Assembly: GCA_963971305.1 (NCBI GenBank)
Contig: OZ020305.1
Span: 3,443,001-3,507,000, forward strand
Source of the DNA: Arcuatula senhousia
Lineage: Eukaryota > Mollusca > Bivalvia > Mytilida > Mytilidae
Length of the DNA stretch: 64,000 bases
Direction: 5' to 3'
The translations under genes and the position numbers were made by a program. Below, in pieces: positions 24,641 through 63,018 of this stretch. Position 1 is the stretch's first letter. Each line of letters starts with the position of its first letter. Under the pieces are notes generated by a model, which had not been told where the DNA came from, searched no databases, and saw only the letters and a list, made by a program, of their open reading frames with translations.

Positions 24641-25604
24641 GATTCCTTTACCCTTCAAACTACACATTTTTTAGCATTAAAGTTAATCAACCATTGCTGA
24701 GACCATGCTAAAAAGCAGTTGAGATCTTTTTGAATATCTTTACATTCTTCTAAGTTTCTAGCAGGTCCATATAGTTTTGTATCGTCAGCAAACATTTTAG
24801 CAGTAATTTTGGCCAGTGATGGCTAGTCGTTTACGTATAAGAATAGCAGAGGTCCATGTATAGAGCCATGAGGGACTCCACTTGATACATTTGTCCAATC
24901 GGAATGACCATTTCTGAGCAAGACTCTCTGTTTTCTGTTAGTGAGAAAGTTCCTTAACCATACTAAGATGGGACCTCTTACACCATAATGCTCAAAATTG
25001 TATAATAAACGTTCATGAGGAACAGTGTCAAAGGCCTTAGCAAAGTCTAAATAAATAATATCTTCTGGAATATTACCATCAAAGGATAATGTCCAATCAT
25101 TTAAACATTCTAAAAGTTGACTTACACATGAGCATTTCTGTTGGAAACCATGTTGATCACATGAGATTATATCATTGGTGTTAATAAATTTCAGTAGTTG
25201 ATCTTGTATTTATATATATGAGACGTTCGAGAAGTTTGGCTATCTGACTGGTTAAGGTTACTGGTCTTTAATTTTGACAGAGTCTACGTGATCCAGACTT
25301 AAATATAGGTGTAATTTTGCCTAACACCCAGTCTTCAGGAATTTATCAGTTTGTATTGAATGGTTGAAAATTATTTCAAGTGGTATCGCAAAGTTAGGTG
25401 TCTTGCGTAAGACATTGACATGGATGTTATCTGGGCCACTAGACTTGAAAGGCTGTAGATTTGACATCTTCTTACGGATTTCCTCGGAACTAATAGGTCT
25501 CGTGTAAAATGAGCTTTGGGTTCTTGGTGTCTTAATTGGAATACTATGGTGAAGTGGAGGTGCCACAGTAAGGACTGAACTGAAAAATCATTTAAAGCTT
25601 CGGC
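24641..25604 (-). pseudogene. LINE reverse transcriptase, N-terminal and catalytic part (degenerate)
   Basis: Minus-strand translation shows LQPFKSSGPDNIHVNVL, then PEDWVLGKITPIFK, DFAKAFDTVPHERLLYNFEH, SSGVPHGSIHGPLLFLY and KMFADDTKLYGP: the fingers and palm of a jockey/CR1-like reverse transcriptase, including the Ala-Asp-Asp catalytic pair. It is broken by single-base frameshifts near 25,340 (before the PEDW motif) and 25,580 (after ALNDF), and by an in-frame TAG after LYVND. Its C-terminus is the fragment at 21,468-21,975. The 5' side is cut by the element starting at 25,605. Confidence 0.85.
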
Positions 25605-25739: not shown

Positions 25740-26420
25740 ACCGTTGACAAACTGGAGACAGTCTTAAAACTAGATAATGTGTCTATGAGCCACAGGATGG
25801 CCCTCCCGTTCTTGAAATATCTTTGACCCTCAATGTGTATTACCTGGGATATGGACCTTTACCGAGAAATTGATCAAAAGTGTTCATGTGTAAAATATAG
25901 GTCGCTGTGACCTAATTTCTAGTGGGTGGTGTCACCTTACCTAAGACACATCTAGTAGTGAAATATCATTGACCCCCAACATCTAGTATCCAAGTTATGG
26001 ACCTTAACCAAAAACTTAACCGAAGTAATTCATGCGTAAAATATAGGTCACAGTGACCTAATTTCTAGTGGGTGGTGTCACCTTACCTAAGACACATCTA
26101 GTAGTGAAATATCATTGACCCCCAACATCTAGTATCCAAGTTATGGACCTTAACCAAGAACTTAACCGAAGTCATTCATGCATAAAATATAGGTCACAGT
26201 GACCTAATTTCTAGTGGGTGGTGTAGCCCTACCCAAGACCCATCTGGTGGTGAAATATCGTTGACCCCCAACATCTAGTATCCGAGAAATGGACCTTAAC
26301 CAAGAACTTAACCAAAGTGTTACGGACGGACGTACGGACGTACGGACGTACAGACGTACGGACGTACGGACGGACGGACAAGGGTAAAACTATATGTCCG
26401 ATCCACATACGTGGTCGGGC
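25740..26420 (+). repeat. 146-bp tandem repeats with GACGTACGGACGG tail
   Basis: Units starting at GACCTAATTTCTAGTGGGTG recur at about 25,910, 26,056 and 26,202, exactly 146 bp apart. A run of GGACGTAC/GGACGGAC tetramers follows, then CACATACGTGGTCGGGCCAT. Same family as 17,745-18,510; this copy is more regular. Confidence 0.85.
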
Positions 26421-27425: not shown

Positions 27426-27645
27426 TTAGTAAAAACTGAGACAATACTCGATAAGAGTGTTCCTTGTACGTTGGAGGCCCAATATGGATAGTCTATTGCT
27501 TTGGTCACATGCAGCCCATGGTGGACTTACAAAGCTTTTTGACACATGCATCCTGTGGTGGTCTTTAAAATGCATATTTGACACATTCATATATGGCACA
27601 GGATACGGTTACGGCAAATTTGGGCAAAACCGTAACAATAAGAAA

Positions 27646-28456
27646 TTCTTATTGTTACGGCAAAGACGAAAATCGGGAACGGATGACGGGATGGAGACCG
27701 AATCATTTACGACCGTAACAATAAGAAATTTCTTATTCTTACGGCACTTATTATTACGGCAAATAGATGTATCCATATAACGACGATATGAAATAAAGAG
27801 TTTATTAATTTATACAATCCAAGCAGGCAAAAAAATCTAATAATCTAAATTTAACTCAAAGTTATTCTGATAACTTATTGCACATGCAACATAACCAATA
27901 AGTGGATTTCGGGTTTTGTATTTCTGGTGAAACCATTCAAGGCATCCATCACAGACGATAACAAGTTGTACGTCTACATCTATCTTGAGTTTTAAAGCAT
28001 GGTCTATGATTTAATTTTTTTCCCAAAACCAAAAAAATTGATCTGGTCCGTCCATTGTTTACAATTTAAAAGTATTAGATGATTTTTTAGAACATAGGAG
28101 TGTATACAGAAGAGATCGAGTTCTCTTTAACCGGGGCACTCACTACGGCAAACAATTTTATTCAACAAAGAGAAGAGCCCGGAGAATGTTTTCTAATACC
28201 AACTACCGATGAGCTGAATTTATTCTTTTATTCTTTTATTGTCACTTAATTCAATTATTAGTAATAATAGCGAAAGAAGTTAACTATAAAATATTTATAA
28301 TTGTCTATGGTAAATATCATTATGCCAATTTTATCGTCCATGCCGTAAGAATAAGTGCCGTAATAATAAGAATATCCTTATTGTTACGGTCATAAATGAT
28401 TCGGTGTCCGTCCCGTCATCCGTTCCCGATATTCGTCTTTGCCGTAACAATAAGAA
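27646..28456. mobile_element. Fold-back element with CCGTAACAATAAGAA palindromes
   Basis: The left arm (27,646-27,760) and right arm (28,342-28,456) are about 115-bp inverted repeats with only scattered mismatches, around a 580-bp centre. Each arm contains palindromes built on CCGTAACAATAAGAA. At the outer left edge (27,630-27,660) is a perfect 31-bp palindrome with one central base. The centre has no supported ORF. The right arm ends 16 bp before the terminal-repeat-like block at 28,473. Confidence 0.8.
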
Positions 28457-28472
28457 TTATATCCAGAAAAAA

Positions 28473-28840
28473 AAGGTTGGTATTGTATTTAGGGTTTTTG
28501 GCCCCTACGATTTTAGAAAAAAGGGCCAAAGGGGACTAAAACGGGTGTATCGACAAAACTATTGTAGAATGTTTATTATTCATTCAATTTTGAAAATTCT
28601 TCTTTTGTTAAATTGCTAATTGAATTCTGTCACCTAGATGTGTCAATGGTTTTGGTAGTTGTATTGCTATAGGGGGGCAAAGATGGGCCACGACCTTAAA
28701 CTCAACTTTTTAATTTTGGTCTGATTTTCAAAATCTTTTTTTCATTGGAATTCTTGTGCAAATCCCTGCCTGTATTTTTCAGTCAGATTTGCAATATCTC
28801 TTACAGTTTTAGAGAAATTAGGGATCAGAGAGCCAAACAT
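28473..28840 (+). repeat. Left long inverted repeat flanking the Mutator-like gene
   Basis: Begins AAGGTTGGTATTGTATTTAG and contains GGACTAAAACGGGTGTATCG, GTAGAATGTTTATTATTCAT, GATTTTCAAAATC, AATCCCTGCCTG and AGAAATTAGGG. Every motif recurs in reverse order and orientation at 37,595-37,972, on the other side of the gene at 29,102-37,260. Long inverted termini of hundreds of base pairs are a Mutator-like hallmark. Another copy in direct orientation is at about 61,829-62,075, so the block also exists alone. Confidence 0.75.
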
Positions 28841-29101
28841 ATCAATTAATGAAAAAACAAGACTTTTTCAATTTGATGCTGATATGTAGATATATATAAA
28901 TTTGTTACTACAATCATGTTAATGTTCGTATACAGTAACTTACATGACTTACTACAATAAACTCTGATTTAGAAAGTTATAAATAAATTTACAATCTAAT
29001 CAATTATAATCCAAATAACAATTGACATTGATTATAATTTAGCAAATATCCTAAGTCTGTCATTCCATAATGATTATTTCAACATACATTACTGGTAATA
29101 G

Positions 29102-32100
29102 CTATTCTTCATTACCAAGAAAGTTCACAACCTTTTGAACAACTTTTCGATTGTTACTTATTCTTGGCTTTCCATTTTCTGTTCTTTCAGAGAATAAGTA
29201 ATATACTCCATCAAAGCCATCCCTCTGATAGGCTGTTTTCAAATGGGTAAAGGACAAAGAAGAACATTCAAGTTTTTTAAAAATTTGTCTAGAAATAACT
29301 TTTGCTCTGAATAAATGTTCTAGGGAATCTTCATTAGGTACAACACCATGGCTTGTTACTTGCTGAGTTGAAAAAAAATGAACAGATTTAAGATCATCCA
29401 CTTTTCCAGAGTTCTTTACCAGAGACTGTAGAACTCTACAATCTTCTAAGGCATCATGAGCAGAATAGGATTCCTCCAGTAATTTGTGAGCCAAATATTC
29501 CTGTTTGTGGTTTTCAAATGTTGGGTGTAATTTTCTAAAGAAGGGGAGAGTGTCACAAAATCCAATTACATATCTGCAAAAATGGTTCCAAAGGTTATAA
29601 GATTTCAACTGATTAAAAAGGATGATACTGTCAAACAGCTTGTTGTTATGAGCAGCAAGAACAATGAGTTTACCATTTACAGAAAGAGCAATAAGAAATT
29701 GAAGAAAATCCAGCAGTACTTGTTGAGGATGCTTGTGGGTTACAGGTTTATTATGGTGGAAAAGCTCATTTGTCAGTTCATTAAAACGTATTCCTGTAAC
29801 TCTGGATGCATCTTCTGAAATTATCTGGCTAGGTGTTGCATAGTTGTTGAATACGTCCTCCTCATGTATTGCAGCTATCTGTGTTATTGAACTATGCCTA
29901 CCTACAAATGTAAAAAAAAACATGTAATACAGTGTTTTTGCATTTCAATAAAAGTTCAAAATTTAAGTAGATGCTTAAAAGAAATACTAATTCTACTATC
30001 GAAAGACCTGAAATCAAAGTCTGAACCTCAATTGCACGGCCAATAACCACAAAGCATCTAAGAAGAGCTTTTGGTGATTTTTTTTTTTTACTGTCAATAT
30101 GTACTCATTACCTTATTTTACACTTGTGTCTTATAACCCTGTTAGGGGATCCTAAGATTGTACTGGAAAAGGTTATGGAGTTTGTCACATTAAAACCTTG
30201 TTCCACAACCGGCCACCATTTCCTTTGAAAAGCCTTTAACAGGTAAGGACAATGCAACTTTCAATTAGTTCAGTATGTTTTTGCATTATTTTGCATTTTT
30301 AGTGGTTCTATGAGATTGATCATTCCTGTTTGGAAATTTGGTTATTATCTTTATTTAAAATGCCATAAAATCATCTCTAAAGGGAAGGTGCATATCTTCA
30401 ATGTGCATGAGTTCGAAAGATCCAGTATAAGGTTATGGAGTACTCAATTAATATAACAGGTACCAATTATTTTTGCAAGAGTTACAGTAACTTGACTCAA
30501 AGATTTAGATGCCAGTAAAAATGCTGAAAGGCATCTGATATCTCTTCATTGTCTCAAATTCAAAAGGTACCCTGAAAATGTAGTGAAAAATGTCGGCTTG
30601 TTAAACAGGAAGTAGATAATCGACAGACCTGAAAATGTATCCCAACATATGGGACCCCTACCTGAAGCTACATACAAAATATTTGAAAAGCCTACGATTA
30701 ATAATAGTTGAGATATCTGTAATGCAAATTGTGATCACAGACTGACTGACCGACCAGTCCAAAACATTATACCCTTAGCAACTTTGTTGCGTGGGGTATG
30801 ATAAGTGTATGAAACATAACCTACATAAACAAGCAGCAATGTAAAAGATTCATAACAGAGGAAGGCCAATATAAATATCAAGAAATTAAATTCATACCTA
30901 GCCCTGTAGTCTCTAAATCATAGTAAACTAGAACATTTTCTGTACAGTTGTCTGCTGATGGTCCAGGAATTTCTGTCAAGTCAGGTTCTTGTGTTTCAGC
31001 TGAAAAAAAAGAATAAATCTTGAAACAGATATATGACTGGTGCACTAATAACAATAATAGAATGTCAAAAAATTCAGATTTAATCATTATGAAAGACAAA
31101 GGGCAATAACTCTTACAACCATATTCAATACCTAAATATTTTGTGAAAAAAACATAAACAGATTTTTTTTTTTGTGAAAGCAATCCCCAATCCATTTAAG
31201 TATTTGATGTGACATGTATTTTTTTTTCTTTTTACACACAACATAAGTGATGAGTAGTTGCTGATAAAACCATAATACCTCCCTCTTCTCTGAAAATGAG
31301 GTGCATGTAATATAAACATCATGTAAAAACATCATACCGATTACGTTGGAGCAGTACGTGTCCCCCTCTCTGATTTCTGCACTTCTAGTCTCGGATGATC
31401 TTTGGCTCTTCAGTTTTTGACGTTGTAACTGTTAAAAATATATATGTATATACATGTAGGAAAGACTTGCATGTTGAAACTTTCCAATTTGAAGCAGACA
31501 AGTACTTTGCTTTGTACAGAAAAGATTTTGTGTATCATTCAAACTTGTCTTTTTTTTTAATTCTAAGTACTGAGTACATGTACAATAGTTTTTTTTTCTA
31601 TTTTGAGTGATTTATAATCTCTAGGTCCAACATTGAATTTCATTCATGAGGATTAATTTTTCAAAATTACAATTTGATGCTTTGAAATGTCTGATAAAAA
31701 AAAAATTTCGAAAAAGAAAAATATCTATATAACTCAAACCTTGAATTCTTTTGTTTTTGATACAATCCTTTTCCTTTTAACATCTTTATCTCTGATAAGA
31801 GCTGCAGCTGTGGTTGCATTCCCAGGACTAAGCCCTAGTTCTTTATGGACCTGAAAAATAATTTTCATATCATATAGCATATAATTATATGTTACCAAAG
31901 TATTCTGTATGTTATTATAAAATATTATGCAGAAACTAAATGCATCATTTATACATTGGTTGTATTGACAAAAATGATATAGTCATTGTTAATGTAGATG
32001 TGCTAATATACATACATGTATTAATAGGGTATATTGTACATGTAATTTGGCTTGAGTTTTGGTTCCTGGCAGAATGCAAAGCCAGTTCACATGTTTTTGC

Positions 32101-35100
32101 TTTAAATTCATTCATGATCTCTTAATAAGTTTTATTAAATCATTCATACATAACATGGATATGTACAAACATCCTGTTTATTTGCTGTGGTTATTTTTGT
32201 ACAATATTCAAATCTTTAGTTATTTCTTTTCTTTCTGTAACACATTGCATAAAGATTAAATACATTTTTTTTTTACCTCCGCAACATATTGATAGCCTTC
32301 ATTTTTCTGGCATACAGCAGCTGACAATCTGTGAGCCAAACTACTACTTTCACTGTAATGTTTGTCCTTTGGGGCTTTTGATCGGAGAGTATTGTTGAAA
32401 CTTTCATTCACATTGCTAGAGTCAAGTTTACTTAATTTGTGTGCATCAAGGTTGGTAAAGACTTTCAAAAGCTCTTTCTTCAGATTTTCATTCTTTAGGT
32501 CAGAACCCCATGGCAAATTTTTGTGCTTAGCTTTCGGGTTGGCCTTTAGGTGACACCAATCTCCACAGTCCATATGGTTTCCAAATTGGTGAAGAACAAC
32601 TGATTTAAGGCTTTTCTTTATGTTTTCTTCATTCCCTTTGTTTTGAGCCAGCATGAATGAGAAGCTTTTAATTAGGGCATTTATAGTTTTGACAGATAGT
32701 TCTTTGTATTGGCCTTTCAATTTATACAGTTTGTTAGATACATTCTTTTTCACATGGTTAGTGTCACTAACTTTCTCCAGCGAAGAACTAACTTCACACC
32801 TTGCCCTGTTGAAGCCAGTGCAGTCGTCATCTCCTATTAGGGTCACAATGGGATTTTCTTTATTCTTTGCATCTTTCAGGATTTCAACTATCATGTCAGG
32901 CTCCATTGATTTTGCCGATCCACTCCAGTTTTTCCTACAGATATGTTTTCCTGGCATCTTCTTCTTTACTTTAGCTATGTCGCATGTTCTACACTTTTTA
33001 AATCTAGCGCTGTAACCGATTATTTTTCCAGTCTTCTTTCCAATTAAAGATGCTGTGCCTACAAAACAAGAAAAGTGCATTTTATAACTAACTAATATTT
33101 TACATTGTGATGTGTTGTAGGTTAACACCCTTTCCAAGTAAATGGACGTTACAAGGCAGGTTAAGAGATGAATATTCCATTACAGTGGAACAGCTATCTG
33201 CTAAGTCCATGTTTTGCTATGGGAAATCCCAAAAATTATTTTAATCAAATTTTGATAAATAAAAGGTGTACATCCACATTATCACACAGATTGTGTGAAG
33301 ATCTTATGAAAATCCATCAATGGAATTTAGGAAAAGTTGTGGATTAGAGATGCATGGTACCCTGAGGTGTATAAAACGATAGAAGGACAGAAGTCACCCA
33401 TATCACCATATATACCCTCCACTTTTCAAGCAGTGGGGAAAAAAACTAAGGGTAAACAGAAAAACAAGTGTTGACGTTTAAGGATGTTCGCTACTATTAT
33501 GGAAAATAAATAGGTTTCAAATTTCATTCCTTAAATAAAAAGATAAAAGGAAAAGGTATATAATAAGAAAACAAGAGGCTCCCAGGAGCCTAAATCGCTC
33601 ACCTGGTCTTGATGTCAACCCTATGAAAAACTTTGAAGAGCTTAATAAGCTGAGCATTTAAGCAAGCAAAAGCTTTTCTCTATCTGCAATAGTTTTCATT
33701 CTTTAGACCAAAAACACTATTTTTCGCCATTAAGGGGCTTTAACCCCTATAAGGGGTCATCTGACAACTTCGACGCTATGGAGACTTTTGTAGAGCTAAA
33801 TGAGATGAACAATTTAGCAAGCAACAACTTTTCTCTATCTGCTATAGTTTTCATTCTATAGGCTAAATACATCTTTTTTTGCCTTTAAGGGTCTGTAACC
33901 CCTATAAGGGGTCATCTTACAACTTCGACCCTAAGGAGACTTTTGTAGAGCTAAATGAGCTGAACATTTAAGCTAGCAACAGCTTTTCCCTATCTGCAAT
34001 AGTTTTCATTCTATAGGCAAAAAACACTATTTTTTGCCTTTTAGGGGCTGTAACCCCTAAAAGTCGTCATCTGACAACTTCGACCCTTATGAGACTTTTG
34101 TAGAGCTAAATGAGCTGAACATTTAAACAAGCAACAGCTTTTCTCTATCTACAATAGTTTTCATTCTATAGACCAAAAACACTATTTTTTGCCGGTAAGG
34201 GGCTGTAACCCCTATAAGGGGTCATCTGACAACTTCGACCCTATGAAGACTTTTGTAGAGCTAAATGAGCTGAACATTTAAACAAGCAACAGCTTTTCTC
34301 TATTTACAATAGTTTTCATTCTATAGGCCAAAAACATGCAAAAACGCTATTTTTCACCTTTAAGGGGCTGTAACTCCTATAAGGGATCATCTGACAACTT
34401 CGACCAAATGGAGACTTTTGTAGAACTTTTGATGCTGAAGCAGTAGCGTGGCATCAGATTTCATCTATCTCTTATACTTTTTGATTTACAAGCCAACAAC
34501 AGTAGTTTGACCCCCCTGGTCTATTTTTAGTAACGGTGGCCATGTTTTTCGACAGATCAAAAATAAAAACACAAGTTTGGTGCAGGACACCCTAAGGATC
34601 ATTCATACCAAGTTTCATTAAATTCTGTTCAGTAGTTTCAGAGGAGAAGATTTTTGAACAATTGTTAACGGACGACAGACGACGACGACAGACGACGACG
34701 ACGGACGCCAAGTGATGGTAAAAGCTCACATGGACCTTTGGTCCAGGTGAGCTAAAAAATTGATAGGTTTGTGACCTTGTTTTCAAGATAATTGACCTTA
34801 AAGTTTTGGCCGGAAAAGGTTTTCTCTGACTTTTTCATAGGTTTAGCACTAGCACTATTTAGCTGTTAAAACCCATGATAGAATAAATAGGATGATAAAA
34901 CTTTGTTTTAAGCCTCTTTAGACATATTAAAGACATTAATTGATTACAAGAAAATAGGGGGCTCGTGGACAAAAAAATCAACCCTATTTTGATGGTAAAA
35001 ACCAGAGGAATACGAAAAAAATGACAGAAATCTCAAAACAAGACTAGCCAGCATCCTTTAATATCAGACATGCAGAAACTTGTAATTACCAGACAAACTA

Positions 35101-37260
35101 TTGAAACATCTTCCGGATCCTCTTCTCTGGAAAGCCCCATCTGCAGATGCTGCTATACCTGGTGCAGATGAATCCACATCAACATGTGTCTCAGTTTGTA
35201 AGATACCTGAAAAATAAATTTATTAGGCAGTGATAAATTTTAAAAGAAAATGGAAACATGCTAATACATCTCTAACAAAACAATGTAAGTTCCAATCAGC
35301 ATATCATTTTCTATTGTTCTTGGTATGTCACATATAAGTATGATACGTGAAGATTAGACTTTGTTTATTGCTTTAGAAGTTTAAATATCTCCTCATAGAT
35401 ATTAAGTTTTATAATTTAATGCAAAAAACAAACAGGAAGTAGAAGTCTGATATGTCAGAAAATATATTCAGATGTACAGTTTGTCAACTGAACTACCGTA
35501 CCAAATTTCAAATCATTCTCATGAACAGTTTTGTAGAAAAACTTGTGGATTTTTTTAATATTGGCCAAGTCTTAAATCACTGTAAACAGGAAGTAGAATT
35601 TATATAGGTCTGAGGTTCCCTTTTTTTTTTGTCATACTCAGATAATACTTAACCACCTTGCTATAAAATTTCAAATTTTTATTATCTACGAATTCTGAGA
35701 ATAATTACATGTACAATGTATATAGACAAACTTGTTTCAATGTTTGGATAATTTTTTCACAAGTAACTGTATGCACATTACAATATGATGCTAGTTGTAC
35801 ACATATTTGAAATGTACATGTAAAATGACTGAGCTATTTCAATTATCCAAAACACTGATATTTTGTTTTATCAGCAATTAGCAGCTTTTCCCTTTGATCT
35901 CATCTGTATGGGGTTTTTTTACAGATAAAAAGAATATTATATATTCCTTTTTGATACTACATGTATCTATATCTAGTCTCATATTAGACTTGTCCTATGG
36001 GACTTGTGTGATACTCTGACACCTAGATATAGATTTTTTTGACAATAAGTTTGTTTGGTCTTTGTTAAAATACTGACCTATCCTACTTCATTACATTTTC
36101 ATCTTGTCAGTGTAACCCAATTTCAGCATTTACAAATTACAGACAATCACTGTAGTTATACTGTACAAAAAATCAGATGTAATTTGTCAACTCCGAACAT
36201 TTCCAACAAAATCACTGAATTGCATTAATTCTATTGTTGAATTTGAATCCGTTTCATTTTATACCATTGCAAGCACGTCAATATTTAGGACATAAGAAAA
36301 TACGTCATAGAAGTATTTTATTGATTTTGGGTCTAAAAATAGCATTTGTTTTACAGTGTGTCAGCTTAATTCTGTTCTTTAATAGATTCAGTATTTTTTT
36401 TTATTATAGACAAAATATTATGAAATTTATTTTCACTGACATTTAAATAAAAAATGCTGAATTTTGACAGCATGCCGAAATTGGGTTGCCCCACATTATG
36501 CTTCAAATCAATCAATCAATCAATCAACTTTTATTGCCATATAAATCTCTGGATTTGTGACAAACACAAGTAAAACAATAAAATTTCTAAATGAAAATGT
36601 TTTTTAACAGATTTTGATTTTCAGATGATAGTCATAACATAACTTATTTGAAATAAAAATTATGAGTTTTCACAAAAAGAAAAGGACTAATATAATACCT
36701 GTTGCAAGCTTAGTGTTCACATCGAAAATCCTAGGACCATGGACTGCATTGTGGGTTTTACCCATCGCCACACGAGCAAAGTCATTGCAGCTGCTACATT
36801 TTATAATAAGGTGTCCACACAGTCCAGCTGGTAAAATTCCTATTCTGTCTTTAAAGTTTAAACAGGAATTACATTTCTTACATTTCATGTTCTCAAACAA
36901 AGTTTCAAGATCTATTACAAATCTTGTGTTTCCAACTGGCCTCAGCTTTCCAGAAAAAAACAAATCATTAACTTCATCAAAAGATGTAGAAGACTGATAA
37001 CTGTGATCATGATGTAAAGAATCTGTAGCTGTAGAGTTATAACATGTTGCTGTTGCAAAGGATGTATCAAAATCATGTGAAAAAGATGTATCAAAATCGG
37101 GTGTAGAAAAAGCATCAAAAATGGGCGTAGAAAGGGTATCAAAATCGGTTGTAGAAACAGGTGTAGAAATAAATGGTTTGGAAATATTATTCAATCTGTT
37201 TTTGTAAGTCTCTGCTTGTCTGTTCTTCAAAAAACGACCGTCTTTCCTTCTGCTCGGCAT
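29102..37260 (-). CDS. Mutator-like transposase fused to DEDDh exonuclease
   Basis: Seven exons (minus): 37260-36699, 35206-35090, 33058-32277, 31850-31740, 31428-31338, 30999-30898, 29901-29102. All introns are GT-AG and phases agree, giving 854 residues. Start ATG at 37,260 (MPSRRKDGRF). Residues 1-187: Ser/Thr/Asp-rich stretch, then a Cys-pair zinc ribbon (CKKCNSC, CSSC). About 205-485: Mutator-like transposase core with ADGAFQRRG (D210), a CRTC..HIC cluster, NWSGSAKSMEPD, LIGDDD and SDTNHVKKNVSNKL. About 490-570: linker. About 577-760: 3'-5' exonuclease with D582-L-E584, D679 (HNNKLFD) and H737..D742 (HDALED), so all five DEDDh residues are present. Role inferred: DNA transposition with end-processing, or a domesticated nuclease. 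Introns carry other repeats. No in-frame stop or frameshift. The transposase assignment is from family resemblance; the fusion and splicing are predictions. Confidence 0.8.
30140..30355 (+). repeat. Penelope-type 3' tail remnant (in intron)
   Basis: GGATCCTAAGAT, ACAACCGGCCACCATTTC, AGGTAAGGACAATG and TCTATGAGATTGATCATTC correspond in order to the sequence after the reverse transcriptase at 55,075-55,285. It lies in the last intron of the Mutator-like gene. Confidence 0.65.
33571..34757 (+). mobile_element. Hairpin-ended element with 156-bp internal repeats (intron)
   Basis: Begins with a hairpin (AGGCTCCCAGGAGCCT) and ends with a second one (GCTCACATGGACC..GGTCCAGGTGAGC). Between them are five units of about 156 bp, each with CTATCTGCAATAGTTTTCAT, CCCTATAAGGGGTCATCTGA and CTTTTGTAGAGCTAAATGAG, then a GACGACGACGG tract. 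The same ends occur inverted at 41,397-42,643. No coding capacity. It lies in the second intron. Confidence 0.8.
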
Positions 37261-37594
37261 GTCGTCAGGTGCTTGTTTACATTACCGTAAACGGCGCGAA
37301 AGTGTGTCGTAATCGATAATATTGAAAATAAAAGGTAGATATTATCTTTATAACTGTTTAAAATTTAAAAGAATGATATTTTAGAATATTTTTATATATA
37401 TATTTACCAATATAGCTTATCTTGTCAATTAATTTTATTTTTTCAAAATTCTTACAGTTCAACAACCGAAAACCGCCCGAGTTGCGCAAAGGCTAAAAAC
37501 GCGTTTCAGATCGGGCCTCGTTAACAATTGGCTGGCCCACTAGAACAAATTTATTTGTGTAAAACTATTTGATGTAACAAATTTTTAAATAAGG

Positions 37595-37972
37595 ACCTTT
37601 TTTGCCCCTTCGACCCCTAATTTCTCAAAAACAGTAAGAGATATTGCAAATCTGATTGAAAAACGCAGGCAGGGATTTTCACAAGGATTCCAATGAAAAA
37701 AAATTTTGAGAATCGGACCACAAATAAAAAAGTCGATTTTTAGGGTGTGGCCCCTTTTTGACCCCCTGTAGCAATGTAACGGTGCAATAAATATCAAAAT
37801 CATTGACACATTTAGTTGACAGAATTTTATGAGGAATTCCTTGAAAAAAGAATTTTCAAAATCGAATGAACAACAAACATTCTACAACAGTTTTGTCAAT
37901 ACACCCGTTTTAGCCCCTTTTGGCCCTTTTTCTAAAACAGTAGGTACAAACCCCAAATACAATACCAACCTT
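37595..37972 (-). repeat. Right long inverted repeat flanking the Mutator-like gene
   Basis: Reverse-complement counterpart of 28,473-28,840. From the outside inward it reads (minus strand) AAGGTTGGTATTGTATTTGG, AGGGCCAAAAGGGGCTAAAA, CGGGTGTATTGACAAAACTG, ATTCGATTTTGAAAATTC, AATCCCTGCCTGCGTTTTTC and GAGAAATTAGGGGTCGAAGG. It lies about 340 bp upstream of the start codon. Divergence between the arms is visible, so if they are termini the insertion is not recent. No clear 9-bp duplication was found outside them. Confidence 0.75.
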
Positions 37973-38015
37973 CCTTTAGTGGTTACAAACATCATATCAA
38001 AATTTCAAAACAATT

Positions 38016-38176: not shown

Positions 38177-38181
38177 CAATT

Positions 38182-39455
38182 GGTCAACATTTACTCAAGT
38201 TATCGCACGGAAACCAAATGTTCCCAGACGACAACGACGACGACATCGCCATAACATTATACGATCGCAAAATTTTGCGGTCGTATAAAAACTGTTTTTA
38301 ATCGGACTATGTAAATAAATATTCAATACCTAAATTTATAAATACACATGTGAAAGTGTAAGTTCAAAGAAATTCTATCAAGACATTGTTATTCTCCGGA
38401 AGAAGCAAAGAGGCCCCAATTAGATTGTCATAAGTCTGAAACCAGTACTGGTAAACACATGAAACACAAACAAGATCATAAAGTCCAAAGTCATAAAAAG
38501 AATGCACTCAAGTGCTCCTGACCAGAAGAATAAGCAGTTCCTTAGCAAAGACTTATTATAATTTACAGAGTAACTATTAAGGGATTTGATATCTTGACCT
38601 GAATCTTGTGTGGCTTGACTTAAATTAACCAGTATGAATTAATGTGTACCTTTTTTGTTTTAAATATCATAAATGGTGTGTTGTACAATATCAAATAAAC
38701 ATGATAAATGAGATGAAAAGTGACCAAAATTATGCACTCAAACCAATTCTCTGTCAAAAATTTCTAAGTAAATTTAGGAGCTTGTGAAAATGACCAAGAA
38801 CCTATTGACACAAAACCTGAGAAAATTAAAACTAGTTTATTTTTTTCTCAGCACAAACAAATTAAAATGTGTCTCAAATCAAAATCTTAAACCTGTAAAT
38901 GGTTGATGTTTATGCAAAATTCTATGATGAGCCCCTTAACAATAAGCTCTGGATAAATTCATTGGTATTAGACAAAATGATTGACCAATGGAACTCAAAG
39001 TATAGGTAGACAGACAAAAAGCTGAATGCTTTATATATACTCAACAAAACTAAAATGACAATGTCAGAACATTTCTAAAGTGTAAGATCGTCATTTTAAG
39101 GGGCCTTTATGTTGAAAGTTTAATGACTTCAAGCATTAATGTATCGTATATAGCACAGATTTACAGAAATTACAAACAGAATGTCAAATGTACAACATTT
39201 TTGTGATCTATATATACAGGAAACAACTGCTGAATCTTTACAGACAGATATTGACATGATTGAGAAAATATAACATGGTTCATTTTCAAAAGTAAAAAAA
39301 GAAAGAGAGAAAAAGATAGATTATCTTAAATTTAAAAATGACTTAACTGTCAGACTCTTTAATACCAGTACAAAATTTCAAAATCCCCCAAATGTAATTT
39401 CAGCTTCAAAGAAATATTAGTAGTAATTTACATTTTGTAAATCATGAAAATGAAG
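38182..39455. other. Intergenic repeat remnants
   Basis: 38,182-38,290 continues the GACGACGACGACATC family also seen at 18,740-19,070. 38,440-38,545 resembles 20,090-20,245. The remainder is AT-rich with no supported ORF; its upper part would be downstream of the RNF145-like gene. Confidence 0.55.
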
Positions 39456-39560: not shown

Positions 39561-41281
39561 TCACATTTGGTTAACATTTTCAATATTCAGCTCAACACTA
39601 GAGTCTGTATCATGGCCAGACAAATCAACACTATCATCAGATGATTCGTTATTTTGTCCTCCCACTAAGTCCTCACCTATGTTACCCCCTGGGCTGTCTG
39701 TGTTACCCTGTTTTGGTTTCTCCTCTATCTTCTTATGGCACATGGGACATGTGTCCTTAACATACAACCACTTCCTCAGGCAGGTAGCATGGAAGAAATG
39801 TTTACATGGTGTCACTTTGGCTTGAGTCATGGATGAGAAACAAATTGGACAGACATCACTGAGGTTATTGAGCTCTTCCTCTGTCGCCTGGGGCAACGAC
39901 TCCACCCTAGCCACAGCCTCCCGTCTAAGAAGAAATGTCTTCCATCCAGTTTGTAGTCTCTTATACACATTGAAATAACAGTGTATGATCAGTATTCCAG
40001 AATTTATCCAGCTCCAGTGGCCAACAAATGTCTCCTTGAGGCCAAAACACACAACAAACAGAGCTACGAAAAATTCTAAAATTCTCACAGTTGCTCTTGT
40101 GTAATAAATTACATCATCTAATTTATCCCATGAGTTCTCACGTAAAGAGTCATATAAGAACAGGAAGTAGACGATCAAGGATCCTATGGCTTGTACTGAA
40201 GTCATAATACTACTAGATATGATCACTAACAACCAGAAATCCAGGCTGAAATATTGGCAGATAGTGTATGTCATATATAGGGGAAACATCCAGAGAAATG
40301 TGAAGAGAAAAATGGCTCGGACATGTTTCAAAATGTTCCTGTTGTGTGATGCGCTCAGAGACAACAGAATAGGGTCTGATATCTCATACATTGATTCAAT
40401 GAGTGAAGATATAACAATGAAGAGCAATATACTCATGAGAAAGGTCCTCTGTAATGGTTTAAGGTCTGTCAGGCCTGTCTGGAAGGCTATCAGTAACATG
40501 GTCCCTCCTTCTGTCCAACCCCAGAATGTATCATTGTCATTGGCGTAGTCCCAACCTTGTAGGAATATCTTGGTCAAGGTCAAAAGGAAGAAGGATACAT
40601 ATGAAATTGTTACGCTTAGTGCAATCAAACTGACTGGTGTCGCACAGCATTCTCCAACAACGGCTAATAATATCATGGGAAAACCCTCCTTCAATATGAA
40701 ACTTGTTCCTACTTTCATCAATATGTAAAAATGTGATGCAAACATATATAACCAGAATACTACAAGCTGGATTCCAATGTTTAGGGTGTTCCATGCGGCA
40801 AAAATAACAGGGAGATATCCAAACTCTTGTATGGCTTCTGATAACTTCTGTAGCAGAACTCTTATGGTCTCAAAAGTGTGGTGAAGATTATTAAAAACTG
40901 TGATCACTAAAACTAAAACGATAAAAACTGTGGCAAAGTTGTGAGCAGCTTCTATAGAATCTGGTGGCAGGCCTATGATTTTGGCAATAACTGGCAAAAC
41001 AAATGCCAGAAAAACAAATCTGATCCAATTTGAAATTTCTAGAAGATAACATATTAATGCTGCTGTGATACATTGTACCAATAAATGTAGAATTATTCGG
41101 TGGATGTGTGAGAAACTTGATAGGAATGTCAGGCTTTGATATTCTTCCGTAAGCTCAGTCACGACAAAGAGGTGGGACATGTACCAGTTAAAGCATGTCA
41201 AGGCAAAGTAGATTATATAGCTGTACAGGTTCACCAAGTTCTTGAGAGGTAGGGTGGCAAGAGTAATGGCAAAACATAATG
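39561..41281 (-). CDS. RNF145: RNF145/TRC8-like membrane RING-H2 E3 ubiquitin ligase (3' exon)
   Basis: One long exon encodes about 573 residues to the stop at 39,561. It is the C-terminal nine-tenths of the usual protein of about 660-690 residues. The 5' edge is a splice acceptor (TTCTTTTTCAG at 41,282), so the initiator exon or exons lie upstream and were not found. At least ten hydrophobic segments fill the first 430 residues, covering the sterol-sensing-like membrane domain; WGWTEGGTMLLIAFQTGL, DPILLSLSASHNR, LDDVIYYTRATVRILEF and GWKTFLLRREAVARVESLP are family signatures. A RING-H2 domain follows (CPIC, CKHFFHATC, KWLYVKDTCPMC), then an acidic Ser/Asp-rich tail. Family members sit in the endoplasmic reticulum membrane and ubiquitinate sterol-pathway proteins such as HMG-CoA reductase. 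Overall pattern is closer to RNF145 than RNF139, with mixed features. Intact throughout. Confidence 0.88.
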
Positions 41282-41396
41282 CTGAAAAAGAAAACAAATT
41301 TATTTCTCATTAGGCCATTATAAAATGATTCCAAGATTCTCATCTAAATTTCTTGACAATACATGTATGGGACAGGTTGCTGTTGGCAAATTCAAT

Positions 41397-42643
41397 TTTT
41401 TAGCTCACCTGGACCAAAGGTCCATGTGAGCTTTTACCATCACTAGGCGTCCGTCATCGTCTGTCGTCTGTAAACAATTTTTCAAACGTTAACTTGTCTG
41501 ACACCATAAGTCCAATTGCAACCATACTTGGTATATTTGTTAAGTGGCATTATGTGTACAAAACTATTGATCGGATTTTTGATTCGTCAAAAAACATGGC
41601 CGCCATGGCTAAAAATAGAACATAGGGGTAAATTGCAGTTTTTTGCAAATACCTCAAATACGGTAACAGATATCAAAATCCTAGCTGAATAAAAGTGATC
41701 AGCACCTCAAGATCTACCTGCCCAGAAATTTTCAAAAAGATCCAACAACCGATGTAGGAGTTATTGCCCTTTTTCTGGATTTTTCATAATTTTGCACTTA
41801 TTTAGCCCTATATTTGAAAACTATACAAGATATTTCAAAAATTCAAATTGCATATAATTAAGCACATCAAGATCTTCATTTCATGTAATTAGGTCAAAGC
41901 CGTAGGACCATTCCTTTTAGGAGTTATTGCCCTTAAAACGTCAAAATTTACCATTTTTCATTACTTTTTCCCTGAATTTCAAAGATTAACTTTTCTGACA
42001 CCATAAGACCAAATGCATTTAAACTTGGTACACTTGTTTAATAGCATATATGATACAATTTGTTGGTTCAGATTTTTGATTTGTCAAAAAACATGGCCGC
42101 CATGGCTAAAAATATAACATAGGGTAAATTGTAGTTTTTTGCAAATACTGTAAACCAATTAATTTTCGTGGCTACAAACTTTCGCGGTTTCCTTAGAATG
42201 AACATTTTCACGGAGATAATCTTTCAGGGTTTGGTAATTCTCCATCATTACAACCTTTTCACTCAGACTGTTTCACGGCTATAAACTTTCGCGTATGCAA
42301 AGCTTCCGCGAATCTCGCGAAAGTTTATAGCACGGGAAAATTAATTGGTTTACAGTAACTCAAAAATGGTTAAGGATATCAAAATTGTGCAAGAATCAAA
42401 AGTGCTCAGCATATTAGGATCTACCTGTCCTGAAATTTTGAAAAAGATCCGACCACTGATGTCAGAGTTATTGCTTTTTTTGTATTTTTTTCAAATTTTG
42501 CACTTATTTAGCCCTATATCTTGAAAGCTATGCAAGATATTTCAAAAATTTAAATTTTATATGGTAAAGCACGATAATATCTACAAAATATGTGTATCTG
42601 TATAGTTCAGGTGAGCGATTCAGGCTCCTGGGAGCCTCTTGTT
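41397..42643 (-). mobile_element. Hairpin-ended element, inverted relative to 33,571
   Basis: Starts TTTTTAGCTCACCTGGACCA with a 13-bp stem hairpin (one mismatch) and ends AGGCTCCTGGGAGCCTCTTG, the same two ends as 33,571-34,757 in reverse. The interior differs: two diverged copies of about 515 bp (TTTCTGACACCATAAGACC, AACATGGCCGCCATGGCTAA, TTTTTTGCAAATAC). The second copy is interrupted by a miniature element. It lies just upstream of the RNF145-like exon. Confidence 0.8.
42148..42355. mobile_element. 208-bp Tc1/mariner-type miniature element
   Basis: CTGTAAACCAATTAATTTTC at the left and its inverse (GAAAATTAATTGGTTTACAG with one extra base change) at the right, flanked by TA on each side (42,146-42,147 and 42,356-42,357). 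It also has CTTTCGCG inner inverted repeats. The undisturbed counterpart of the site is in the first 515-bp copy near 41,640 (GCAAATACCTCAAA), supporting insertion. TA duplication fits Tc1/mariner. Confidence 0.8.
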
Positions 42644-60300: not shown

Positions 60301-63018
60301 TAGCAAGTTTTTATAGATGAATCACTTTTCTTCAATTTTGCATGATTTTTAGGTGGAGTACTACTTAATTAAATAGTACATTAAACACCAAACAAAAACA
60401 GTGGATTCCTTTTATTAGCATAAGCAATTTGTCAGAGAAATTTATGCAATTAACCAAATGACCCCATTAAGTGCAATGTTAATTTTAAACAGAAAATACA
60501 AAGAATTTATATAAATTTGCCTAATTATCAAATGTGTTGAGTAATTAGAACACCCAGGTGACACTTTTATTGTACCCTAATGCTAGTAAAAACAAATGAG
60601 GCATAAATGTAGGTTGTAAAAACATGTTTTTATAACTTTTACCAAACACACTTCAAAGACCTCGTTAAGAAAACATATGATTTTGACAGGTATCAAGGTG
60701 ATTTTTGAAAGTTTCAAGTCAATTCACAGGAATTTTGTTCTTTTTCTAAGATTTTCAATGCAATTAAATGAAATTTTTAACATTAAAAGTATAGGAAAGT
60801 ATAGGAAAGGGTTTGGTGTAAAATCATATTCAATAAAGAGGATTATTCTGATAAGAGGAAGTCGATTAAGTGGAATCCACTGTATTCTGAGTAGTAACTT
60901 TAGTCAATGTTGTAATTCATGATTGAACTACAAAATATTATACATGTAGATAGTATTTGTTATTATTGTTGGGATACATTGGCACAAATGAAAACAAACA
61001 GATAATTGAATACATTGCTAGTTAAGCAAGACTGGACTTGGTGCTGGCACCACAGTCATGCTTTACTAACTTTTTTATAGTGTATACTGTAAAAGTATTA
61101 TTTGTTCTTTGGGTCCCAATTTTCGTGGTTTTTTGTGGGTCAACCCAGTCATTCAAACCATGAAATTTGATTCCTAACGAAATGCAGATTTTCCACTGAT
61201 TTTAATAGTTGAGCTTTTAATCCATGAATTTAAGAATCCACAAACATTTAAATTTTTCCCAATCCACAAAAATTGATACCCATACATAAAAGTACTTTTG
61301 TTATTCATGTTCACAGCTACGGTTATCAGATAGACTGGAGTTTCACGAGCATGATCCGAGTGAACAAGAATTCGACAGTTTGAACCAGGACAAATCATCA
61401 ACTACAGACATGATAGAGGTATGTGTGTGAAAAATGAATATAATTATTTTTATTTGTGGTCCGATTTTCAAAATCTTTTTTTTCATTAGAATCCTCATAA
61501 AAATCCCTGCCTGCGTTTTTCAATCAGATTTGAAATATCTCTAACCGTTTTTGAGAAATTAGGGGTTGAAGGGGCAAAAAACGCCATTTTTCAAAGTCTG
61601 TTTAGGCATATAGTTATATACTAAAAATAAAGTTGTAGCGGGCCCGCCAATTGTTATGAAGTTTTAATATGATGATTATATCCAGTAAATAAAGGTAATA
61701 ACAAAACTACCGAACTTGAATGATCAATCTCATAGTCCAGAGAAAATGACAAAAACGAATCAGTCATACCGAAGAACTGGTGGATCGCAATGGTCCTGAC
61801 TTGGTACAGGCATTTCAAACGAAATGGTAAGGAATTTTGGTATTGAATTTAGGGTTTGTGGCCCCTGTTGTTTTATAAAAAAGGGGCTAAAACGGGTGTA
61901 TTGACAAAACTGATGTAGAATGTTTATAATTCATTAAATTTAAAAAAAAAATTTGGTCCAACTTTTAAAATCTTTTTCCATTGGATTCCTTATGAAAATC
62001 TCTGTCTTAATTTGCAATATTTCTCTTACAATTTTTGAGAAATTAGGGGTCAAAGGGCCAAAAATGTCAATTTTAAAATACATGTATATAAATAAGGCTT
62101 ATTTTTGTATTAGATCATAGATATTAAAGTAAGTACAAATGTGTCAAATGTGCATTTTAAAGTCCAACACAGGATCGTGTGTCAAAAAATTTTGTAAGTT
62201 CACCATGGGCTTCATGTGACAAAAGCAATCTATTGACTATCCATATTGGGCCTCAAACAAACAGGGTTCAACTTGTTGCGGTCGTATCATGCTGCGCTCG
62301 GCGTAGCTTTTTATTCAAAAGTGTCCACTCCAGTATGTTTACGGAAGCTAATAATTTGGGAACCAAAAACAGTGGGGTAAACTGTAAATTTTGGGACTTT
62401 TGCATAGTTTTGAAATAATTTTGTTAGGAGAAACAGTCGATATTCAGAGTTAATTATAGCAAACAATGGTTTTATGCCATAAAAAATATAGAAGCACTAT
62501 AAGAAGTTCTTTATTTAGTTTTTTTTTCAATTTATTTTTTATGTATTAAGAATCTGATTAAAGAACTAATTTTTCATTTATCATTGAAACAACCCTAGAC
62601 CCTACAATGCTCATTCAATGTACATGTATATTACCGGTACTGTTGTAAAAATGAGCCTCTTATTCCTGGTTCCTATATTTATTAACATCCGTATCTGTTT
62701 TAGCTAATGTCACATGCACACTTTTCAATGGTGTCTATTTATTAGTATCACACAGGTTACGAAACCAGAGGCTTTTAAAAATTATGTGATATTTTGCTTT
62801 TCCTTCTACGATTCAGTTAATACAATGTACACTACTAAGTACCATGACAGAAATCAATTTTCATTTACTGAATAAAAAAATAGATCATTTTATATGTTGT
62901 TTTTGTTATTTATCGTTAGGCAAAGAATCAAGATACTAACACCTTAGCCAATAATCTGCGCCGAACATCTCCAAGAAAAAACAGCAATTTATATGCAACG
63001 AAAGACAGTAAAAGAGAA
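51352..63018 (+). CDS. Lys-rich then Gln/Ser-rich, presumably nuclear protein (3' incomplete)
   Basis: Eight exons with matching phases: 51352-51523, 56311-56892, 57561-57682, 58245-58346, 58854-58910 (19 codons), 59668-59940, 61317-61418, 62920-63018. This gives 503 codons so far; the last donor (GTAAGT) points beyond the window. Start ATG at 51,352: MFACIYFEEDRSISVVG, a compact N-terminal domain of about 75 residues ending near LDDFAQLANKNV. A strongly basic region follows with two copies of SPKKKxKKQAKDxEKEK, a likely nuclear localisation signal. Next comes PPPEIIAFFKALDRPDVRAF and long Ser/Gln/Pro-rich, low-complexity exons (SVLPSGSVGTQSSQQQYP). Some animal BEN-domain proteins have a similar short N-terminal domain, but no BEN domain is visible; treat that as a weak guess. 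Intron 1 (4.8 kb) carries the 52,141-55,476 transposon. Confidence 0.65.
51875..51908 (+). ncRNA. Degenerate hammerhead-like relic
   Basis: CCCC, then CTGAAGA (core should be CTGATGA), a short AGG..CC stem, GAAA, a CG step, cleavage-type GTC and GGGG pairing with the initial CCCC. The layout is that of Penelope-associated hammerheads, but the core substitution should prevent cleavage. It sits 2 kb before the Penelope fragment. Confidence 0.4.
52141..55476. mobile_element. 3.3-kb DNA transposon with perfect terminal repeats
   Basis: Left end ATGGGCTGTTT, nine A, TGACGCAA. The right end (55,449-55,476) is its exact reverse complement, 28 of 28 bases. TA/AT dinucleotides flank both ends (the duplication could be read as TA or AT). 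The interior repeats TGTCAGGAGTGTAAC at about 52,323, 52,716, 52,880, 52,904, 53,701 and 53,866. A Penelope-like fragment (53,887 to about 55,290) is inserted inside. No transposase ORF of its own is seen. Confidence 0.85.
53887..54990 (+). mobile_element. Penelope-like element reverse transcriptase (5'-truncated)
   Basis: An open frame runs from TAC at 53,887 (YWIPKLHKIPYKERYIAGSS) to the stop at 54,990, about 367 residues. No ATG is needed to see it; a stop precedes it directly, so the element is cut at its 5' end. It shows FDFSTLYTTLPHEKL (first catalytic Asp), QQIGIPMGTNCAPLLADLFL and FRYIDDVLSINN (Asp-Asp pair), then ELEIKETTES, KIYDKRDDFNF, YGVYISQLIRYARAC and a KKFFLRYQPLV thumb region. 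No GIY-YIG endonuclease is visible. The roughly 300-bp 3' tail (CATTTCGTTAGAAATGCCTG, ACCAAGTCAGGACC, to ATTACCTTTATTT) recurs at 30,140 and 61,685. No internal stop, so the insertion is fairly young. Confidence 0.9.
55477..56310. other. End of intron 1 of the plus-strand gene
   Basis: Contains a small degenerate direct repeat, CCCCATTCATGATGCCCAAT type, at 55,755-55,815. Otherwise AT-rich, ending in the polypyrimidine tract and CAG at 56,310. Confidence 0.55.
56893..57560. other. Intron 2 of the plus-strand gene
   Basis: Bounded by GT at 56,893 and AATATTGCAG at 57,560. No repeat or exon recognised inside. Confidence 0.55.
58443..58790 (+). repeat. Interspersed repeat (GCCCCGCCAACTCTGTTACG)
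   Basis: Starts TATGCCCCGCCAACTCTGTT, has TCTGTCTGTTCGTCCATCTG and ends GCGCGCGGGGCATCAGTG..CATCCTTG. This layout of price-tag-like GTCCGTC runs is common in mollusc interspersed repeats. Intronic and non-coding. Confidence 0.6.
61440..62075 (+). repeat. Two copies of the Mutator-flank repeat around a Penelope tail
   Basis: 61,440-61,585 matches the inner half of the 28,473-28,840 block (GATTTTCAAAATC, AATCCCTGCCTGCG, GAGAAATTAGGGGTTGAAGG). 61,829-62,075 matches the whole block, including the outer GGTATTGAATTTAGGG and GGGGCTAAAACGGGTGTATT. Between them, 61,685-61,828 is the Penelope 3' tail in reverse orientation. All intronic. Confidence 0.7.

Follow-up and report, generated by a model that had tools for sequence, protein, structure and literature searches.

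We examined a 64,000-nucleotide stretch of the genome of the bivalve Arcuatula senhousia (assembly GCA_963971305.1, contig OZ020305.1, positions 3,443,001 to 3,507,000; hereafter the window). We conclude, with a probability of about 0.8 that includes the mechanism proposed below, that it holds an incomplete DNA transposon, most likely a KolobokD element, whose gene is predicted to encode a Kolobok transposase, a DEDDh 3'-5' exonuclease and a PML_C domain. KolobokD is a lineage named in 2022 by Kojima and Bao (PMC9587614). The gene runs on the minus strand from 37260 to 29102 and comprises seven exons with GT-AG borders and phases 1,1,0,0,1,1; the spliced frame of 854 codons has zero internal stops and gives an 854-amino-acid predicted protein. 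Among the 40 matches listed, the nearest protein, at 69% across 77% of the query, is P0001 from Mytilus galloprovincialis. In a tblastn comparison P0001 covered exons 1, 2, 3, 5, 6 and 7, and P0003 from Crassostrea gigas also covered exon 4. The parts of the gene are these:

36699-37260, minus strand: exon 1, with the start codon and a cysteine-rich stretch (seen by eye), ending in ...IFDVNTKLATG; 66% identity to P0001 residues 1-179
35207-36698, minus strand: intron 1, the expected site of a helical transposase exon (P0001 residues 180-263), which is absent
35090-35206, minus strand: exon 2, with the first catalytic Asp, D210, in an SADG motif
32277-33058, minus strand: exon 3, the transposase core with the catalytic Glu, E445
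31740-31850, minus strand: exon 4, linker, matched by P0003
31338-31428, minus strand: exon 5, linker
30898-30999, minus strand: exon 6, start of the DEDDh exonuclease with D582 and E584
29102-29901, minus strand: exon 7, the remaining exonuclease (D679, H737, D742), PML_C (window 29329-29114) and the stop codon

A first-pass annotation, made from the letters of the window, had proposed this phase-consistent seven-exon gene, and the borders, phases and stop-free frame confirm it. The catalytic residues of the exonuclease (D582, E584, D679, H737 and D742) also stand at exactly the numbers it gave; an exon for P0001 residues 180-263, however, is not in its model. Pfam assigned residues 194-395 of the predicted protein to PF20700 ("Mutator-like transposase", E 3.6e-55), residues 579-746 to RNase_T (6.4e-10), and residues 780-851 to PML_C (PF25244, E 1.5e-19), a domain that the annotation had not seen.

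Kolobok elements are characterized by TTAA target sites and 5'-RR ends, and KolobokD by a CCHC finger and a DEDDh exonuclease (PMC9587614). The Kolobok motifs are found in the window protein: D210, and, at columns of exon 3 that are invariant in 14 proteins, a CCHC finger after the first Asp (C249/C252/H265/C267), the second Asp (D303-D305), a DxxH motif (D325-H328) and an H/C cluster before the catalytic Glu E445 (H383/H388/C391/C395). The target sites and ends were read from relatives elsewhere in the genome. The copies on contigs C1, C7, C1050 and C1667 span 6.5-6.8 kb, share 97-99% identity across their aligned blocks and carry a 681-amino-acid frame, which in the C1 copy holds the transposase core, the exonuclease and PML_C. 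Their ends read AGACCAAAC(A/C)GCCTAT, inverted, inside TTAA. A search for TTAA with inverted 16-mers found AGACAAATCCCACT(A/T)T and GGG(A/C)ATACGATACAGT around the C5 and C14 copies. In all three families (C1, C5 and C14) the 16-bp inverted ends match at 15 of 16 positions, whereas 200 shuffled regions gave 14 at best and most commonly 11. In total, six copies across the three related families have TTAA at both ends, and the termini AG, AG and GG agree with the Kolobok 5'-RR. At three of four insertions (C1, C7 and C1667), flanks joined over one TTAA matched other loci end to end at 99-100%. These empty sites are visible because the elements landed in repeats (tandem at C7) that also exist elsewhere without an insertion, and the matches imply that TTAA was duplicated on insertion. 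We conclude that the window element most likely belongs to the KolobokD lineage, as judged by motifs, TTAA and the inverted ends of relatives rather than by a tree against other Kolobok lineages. It shares with published KolobokD elements, which occur in molluscs, arthropods and cnidarians, a Kolobok DDD/E transposase with a CCHC finger and a DEDDh (DnaQ) exonuclease (PMC9587614), and differs from them in being incomplete.

The fusion is a trait of a family. Transposase and exonuclease co-occur in proteins from Mytilus, Crassostrea, Saccostrea, Pinctada, the hemichordate Ptychodera flava, the wasp Leptopilina and Thrips palmi (40 proteins listed). Among 28 of these 40 homologues, chosen by us for alignment, Pfam found the transposase in 28, the exonuclease in 23 and PML_C in 21. 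The D/E/D/H/D residues are intact in all 24 fused rows that cover the five columns (29 rows in total). In the A. senhousia genome, a query with exons 6-7 detected 108 exonuclease stretches at 94 loci, and a query with exon 3 detected at least 111 transposase stretches at no fewer than 98 loci (best 146 of 185 candidates scored). At least 64 of the 94 exonuclease loci have a transposase on the same strand 0.2-8.4 kb upstream, within a limit of 12 kb; among the matches listed, none of the 94 has one downstream or on the opposite strand within 13 kb. The ratio of non-synonymous to synonymous substitution rates (dN/dS) in the exonuclease of near copies was below one in 20 of 20 listed pairs with dS above 0 (pairs below 60% identity or with a stop were left out), although it is weakly measured. 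These results support the annotation's proposal of a DEDDh exonuclease, its catalytic letters intact, fused to a transposase in a member of a mobile family.

The annotation had, however, placed the element in the Mutator (MuDR) superfamily, with terminal inverted repeats of about 370 bp. Mutator elements make target-site duplications of 8-10 bp. The name of the Pfam family PF20700 and the presence of an inverted repeat pair in the window favor that assignment, but looking at other copies, as the annotation had advised, revealed TTAA duplications and short ends where 8-10 bp had been expected. The repeats themselves exist: 28457-28837 and about 37601-37988 form one gapped alignment, with ungapped arms that are 82-85% complementary. 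Their proposed role as ends of the unit did not survive, because they are dispersed independently. The left repeat matches at least 39 other genomic places (best 40 of 3318 candidates). A blast comparison of seven dispersed copies (L002-L008) outlined a repeat of about 1.27 kb, here termed R, that consists of a head, two units (U1 and U2) and a tail. Five of the seven copies carry two units (L005 with a truncated second one), and L006 and L007 carry one; the units are direct in five of five two-unit copies. The pieces of R in the window, together with the element end found at one of them, are:

27462-27594, plus strand: R head, 97-99% to L002-L008
28448-28905, minus strand: R unit U1, the annotation's left inverted repeat, not an element end
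37517-37524, no strand assigned: right (5') element end, at a TTAA of the invaded R, reading CTCG followed by TTAACAATTGG
37521-38015, plus strand: R unit U2, the annotation's right inverted repeat
38177-38291, plus strand: R tail, with a palindromic ACGATCGCAAAATTTTGCGGTCGT near its end

U1 and U2 bracket none of the eight other element copies examined, and two relics of the element, on C4 and C6, have pieces of R at a distance of at least 1.4 kb and on a single side. We therefore rejected the long inverted repeats as transposon ends. Flanks that occur independently and bracket no other copy are what the annotation itself had named as evidence against its proposal, and a Mutator-like element is now very improbable. 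We infer that the element invaded a copy of R and sits between its units, and that R was later rearranged; U1 alone is reversed in the window, which a local inversion would explain most simply. A fold-back sequence (27595-28458, 118-bp arms, 92% complementary) lies at the break between the R head and U1. The window also contains a second, diverged R copy at 61447-62316 (72-87% in pieces).

The boundary at the right end could be read by comparison with the dispersed R copy L002, which has AAAC before TTAACAATTGG where the window has CTCG. This end recurs at one other site, C6:57089600, and is found again with the same flank on contig C1529. The window copy lacks a part of the transposase. A profile of the helical exon expected after IFDVNTKLATG produced no significant match in a six-frame scan of the window, whereas it scored 1e-17 to 1e-22 in C1, C7, C5 and C14. 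Thus, four of the six other copies scanned have the exon, and the two that were negative, C4 and C6, are relics (the C1050 and C1667 copies were left out of the scan). An error in the gene model was considered as the cause and rejected, given a profile that is negative in the whole window yet strong in other copies. Because this exon and one end are missing, the window copy is probably non-autonomous, that is, unable to transpose by itself.

Such a copy with an intact frame could also be a domesticated, KolobokD-derived host nuclease, in which the transposase degenerated while the exonuclease and PML_C were kept for genome defence, like Plex9. The 854 codons free of stops and frameshifts fit this proposal, as do the missing transposase exon and the intact exonuclease residues; the nearest relatives are relics, and the one on C4 shows 8 stops and 8 gapped codons across the exonuclease and PML_C part that was compared. 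The other relic argues the opposite. C6 is a broken copy that retains exon 1 with a portion of intron 1, and its exon 1 is 97% identical to that of the window over 181 codons; the family must therefore have been mobile until fairly recently, and the frame could be open without any selection. In addition, the remaining transposase core of the window copy is also open, with D, D and E kept, and the pairwise dN/dS ratios between the window copy and C4 and C6 (0.46-0.59) are not strong. We conclude that the open frame is explained by youth without recourse to domestication, and we regard a host nuclease at this locus as unlikely.

Several observations weigh against our assignment of the window to an incomplete KolobokD element or against parts of it. 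Among the matches listed, 30 of the 94 exonuclease loci lack a transposase within 12 kb, and some of these could be host genes; the 30 include 23 that span less than 600 nt, the C4 relic, and C10:23298161, where a profile search does reveal a transposase. The 20 dN/dS ratios range from 0.07 to 0.83, with few changes in each and copies shared between pairs, and a 21st near-copy pair has a dN of 0.003 and a dS of 0. For the C1050 insertion, no empty site was found among the matches listed (best 40 of 6797 candidates scored). At its right end the window copy reads TTAA-(A)CGAGG, unlike the Kolobok 5'-RR, with a boundary that is uncertain by one base. The left end, partner of the right one, was not found in the 64-kb window, nor was a partner found in 28 kb around the C4 relic, and a genome search with 28890-29100 matched only the window and C4. 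Finally, the role that we assign to the exonuclease is drawn by analogy.

The active-site letters of both enzymes are intact, and the 681-amino-acid copies join the two in one open frame. In the mechanism that we propose, the transposase would excise the element at TTAA, and the tethered exonuclease would degrade 3' ends of DNA left free where the element departed, or clear failed intermediates. PML_C, if it corresponds to the SAM-like part described for PML-1, may help to hold nucleic acid, because in both PML-1 and Exuperantia the SAM-like part is involved in binding it. The first-pass annotation knew of no described function for such a fusion, but the authors who named KolobokD had already proposed that the exonuclease degrades transposition intermediates from the 3' end, and had likened it to Exuperantia, TREX and ERI1 (PMC9587614). 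The main functional rival places the exonuclease outside transposition: as in TREX1, degradation of stray linear transposon DNA would keep host DNA sensors silent. In a comparison of structure models, the folds closest to the exonuclease part were Plex9.1, then Exuperantia, then TREX1/2, an order that lends this rival some credit. TREX1 degrades stray DNA. A covalent link to a transposase, however, fits a role at DNA ends at least as well, and evasion of sensors seems to us the less probable function, with perhaps one chance in a few. In KolobokD, the contribution of a proofreading-type exonuclease to a DNA transposon can be put to the test.

As far as our literature search went, a conserved PML_C domain behind the KolobokD exonuclease is unreported, and so is the homology of this module described below; the main text of the KolobokD paper has no occurrence of "PML", and hence mentions neither a PML_C domain nor kinship to PML or Plex9 (PMC9587614). 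A DEDDh-type domain followed by PML_C is common to the window protein and the shark PML-like proteins P0066, P0068 and P0080. Judged by sequence, the exonuclease-PML_C module appears clearly homologous to zebrafish Plex9.1 and the shark "PML-like" proteins, and more distantly to Exuperantia. The fold matches span model residues 63-266 and hardly cover PML_C. The full-length model of P0001 has a mean predicted local distance difference test score of 75.6, and the best 50 of its 484 PDB matches are all exonucleases or polymerases, so that they tell nothing about the transposase part. Each known system differs from the transposon protein in some respect. Plex9.1 (PDB 9mrc/9mrd) is a fish host gene and is not known to carry a transposase. 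TREX1/TREX2 and bacterial PolC/DnaQ are more distant in sequence (best PolC 3.7e-17, TREX1 4.4e-12), and no PML_C is recorded for them here. The SAM-like part of Drosophila Exuperantia (PDB 5l80), an RNA-binding pseudo-nuclease (PMC12934764), is not significantly similar in sequence (second domain, -1.4 bits). The PXL domain of PML isoform 1, compared here without the human PML sequence itself, shares the EXO-like plus SAM-like arrangement, and its Pfam domain PML_C is the one found in the transposon protein; it has lost the active site, binds G-rich RNA/DNA and carries no transposase (PMC12934764). In their account of the SAM subdomain of PML-1, the authors of that paper find it in no other nuclease except the pseudo-nuclease Exuperantia (PMC12934764).

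Two variants were noted among the homologues. P0041 and P0042 from Crassostrea virginica, predicted proteins of 1357-1432 amino acids, join EXO-PML_C to a PHD-like zinc finger (zf-HC5HC2H) without a transposase, possibly a separate capture by a host gene. P0097 (labelled Acipenser sinensis, record UNVERIFIED_CONTAM) has E,E,D,H,K at the exonuclease positions, which may mean that a vertebrate EXO protein has lost catalysis, as PML-1 has.

The direction of transfer was addressed with trees, which were built without human PML from 164 rows reduced to 132 and then 116 by dropping 22 named near-duplicates, rows with less than 75% of the exonuclease columns and rows at 88% identity or more. The outgroup was bacterial except for P0138, from a green alga. 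The structures 9l8b and 9l85 were labelled vertebrate by assumption, an organism (zebrafish) being named only for 9mrc (PMC12934764). The EXO-only tree, also without nine short or odd rows and with only 8 outgroup rows, leaves the base open, and its bootstrap had not settled. With the SAM part included, and without Exuperantia, P0113, P0115, P0116, P0118, P0120, P0121, P0138 and rows of fewer than 225 filled columns, the vertebrate clade falls inside KolobokD, weakly (94/80). We tentatively suggest, at somewhat less than an even chance, that domestication of KolobokD parts gave rise to the exonuclease-SAM tail of the tumour suppressor PML, to the Plex9 nucleases that restrict retrotransposons in jawed vertebrates, and perhaps to fly Exuperantia. 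In PML-1 the active site would later have been lost, leaving a reader of nucleic acid. Such an origin of the PML/Plex9 module from a transposon is possible, and the trees lean weakly that way. If this is true, the DNA-end nuclease of a jumping gene was taken over by the host. The opposite course, a single capture by a Kolobok element of an ancient animal EXO-SAM gene from which PML exon 9 and Plex9 also descend, is a serious contender that we likewise place a little short of even. It draws on the open base of the EXO-only tree and on an approximately unbiased test in which a position of the vertebrate genes outside all other ingroup rows was not rejected (p = 0.276). The weak nesting within KolobokD runs counter to capture from a host, and neither tree shows an invertebrate row as supported sister of the vertebrate clade. 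The PML_C domain of KolobokD suggests how an orphan domain in a human protein as intensively studied as PML may have evolved, and the many copies with an intact exonuclease site, PML_C and a transposase provide an apparently active relative to assay.

The window holds further features apart from the transposon gene. Intron 2 carries an inserted repeat:

33565-34755, no strand assigned: 155-bp tandem-repeat element in intron 2

In this element a unit of about 155 bp is repeated six times in tandem, accompanied by an (ACG)-rich stretch and an end that resembles a hairpin, and pieces related to the element are found in L004, L005, L008 and at 41397-41632 of the window; we take it to resemble the pearl/Helitron-like repeats of bivalves. 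Adjoining the transposon, a 581-amino-acid open frame on the minus strand (39564-41306) has a TRC8_N domain (E 4.6e-113) and a RING finger, as in an RNF139/TRC8-like host gene. On the other side are a reverse-transcriptase fragment on the minus strand (24823-25209; RVT_1, 6e-11) and tandem units at 25813-26318 that have a 146-bp spacing and are 82-88% alike.

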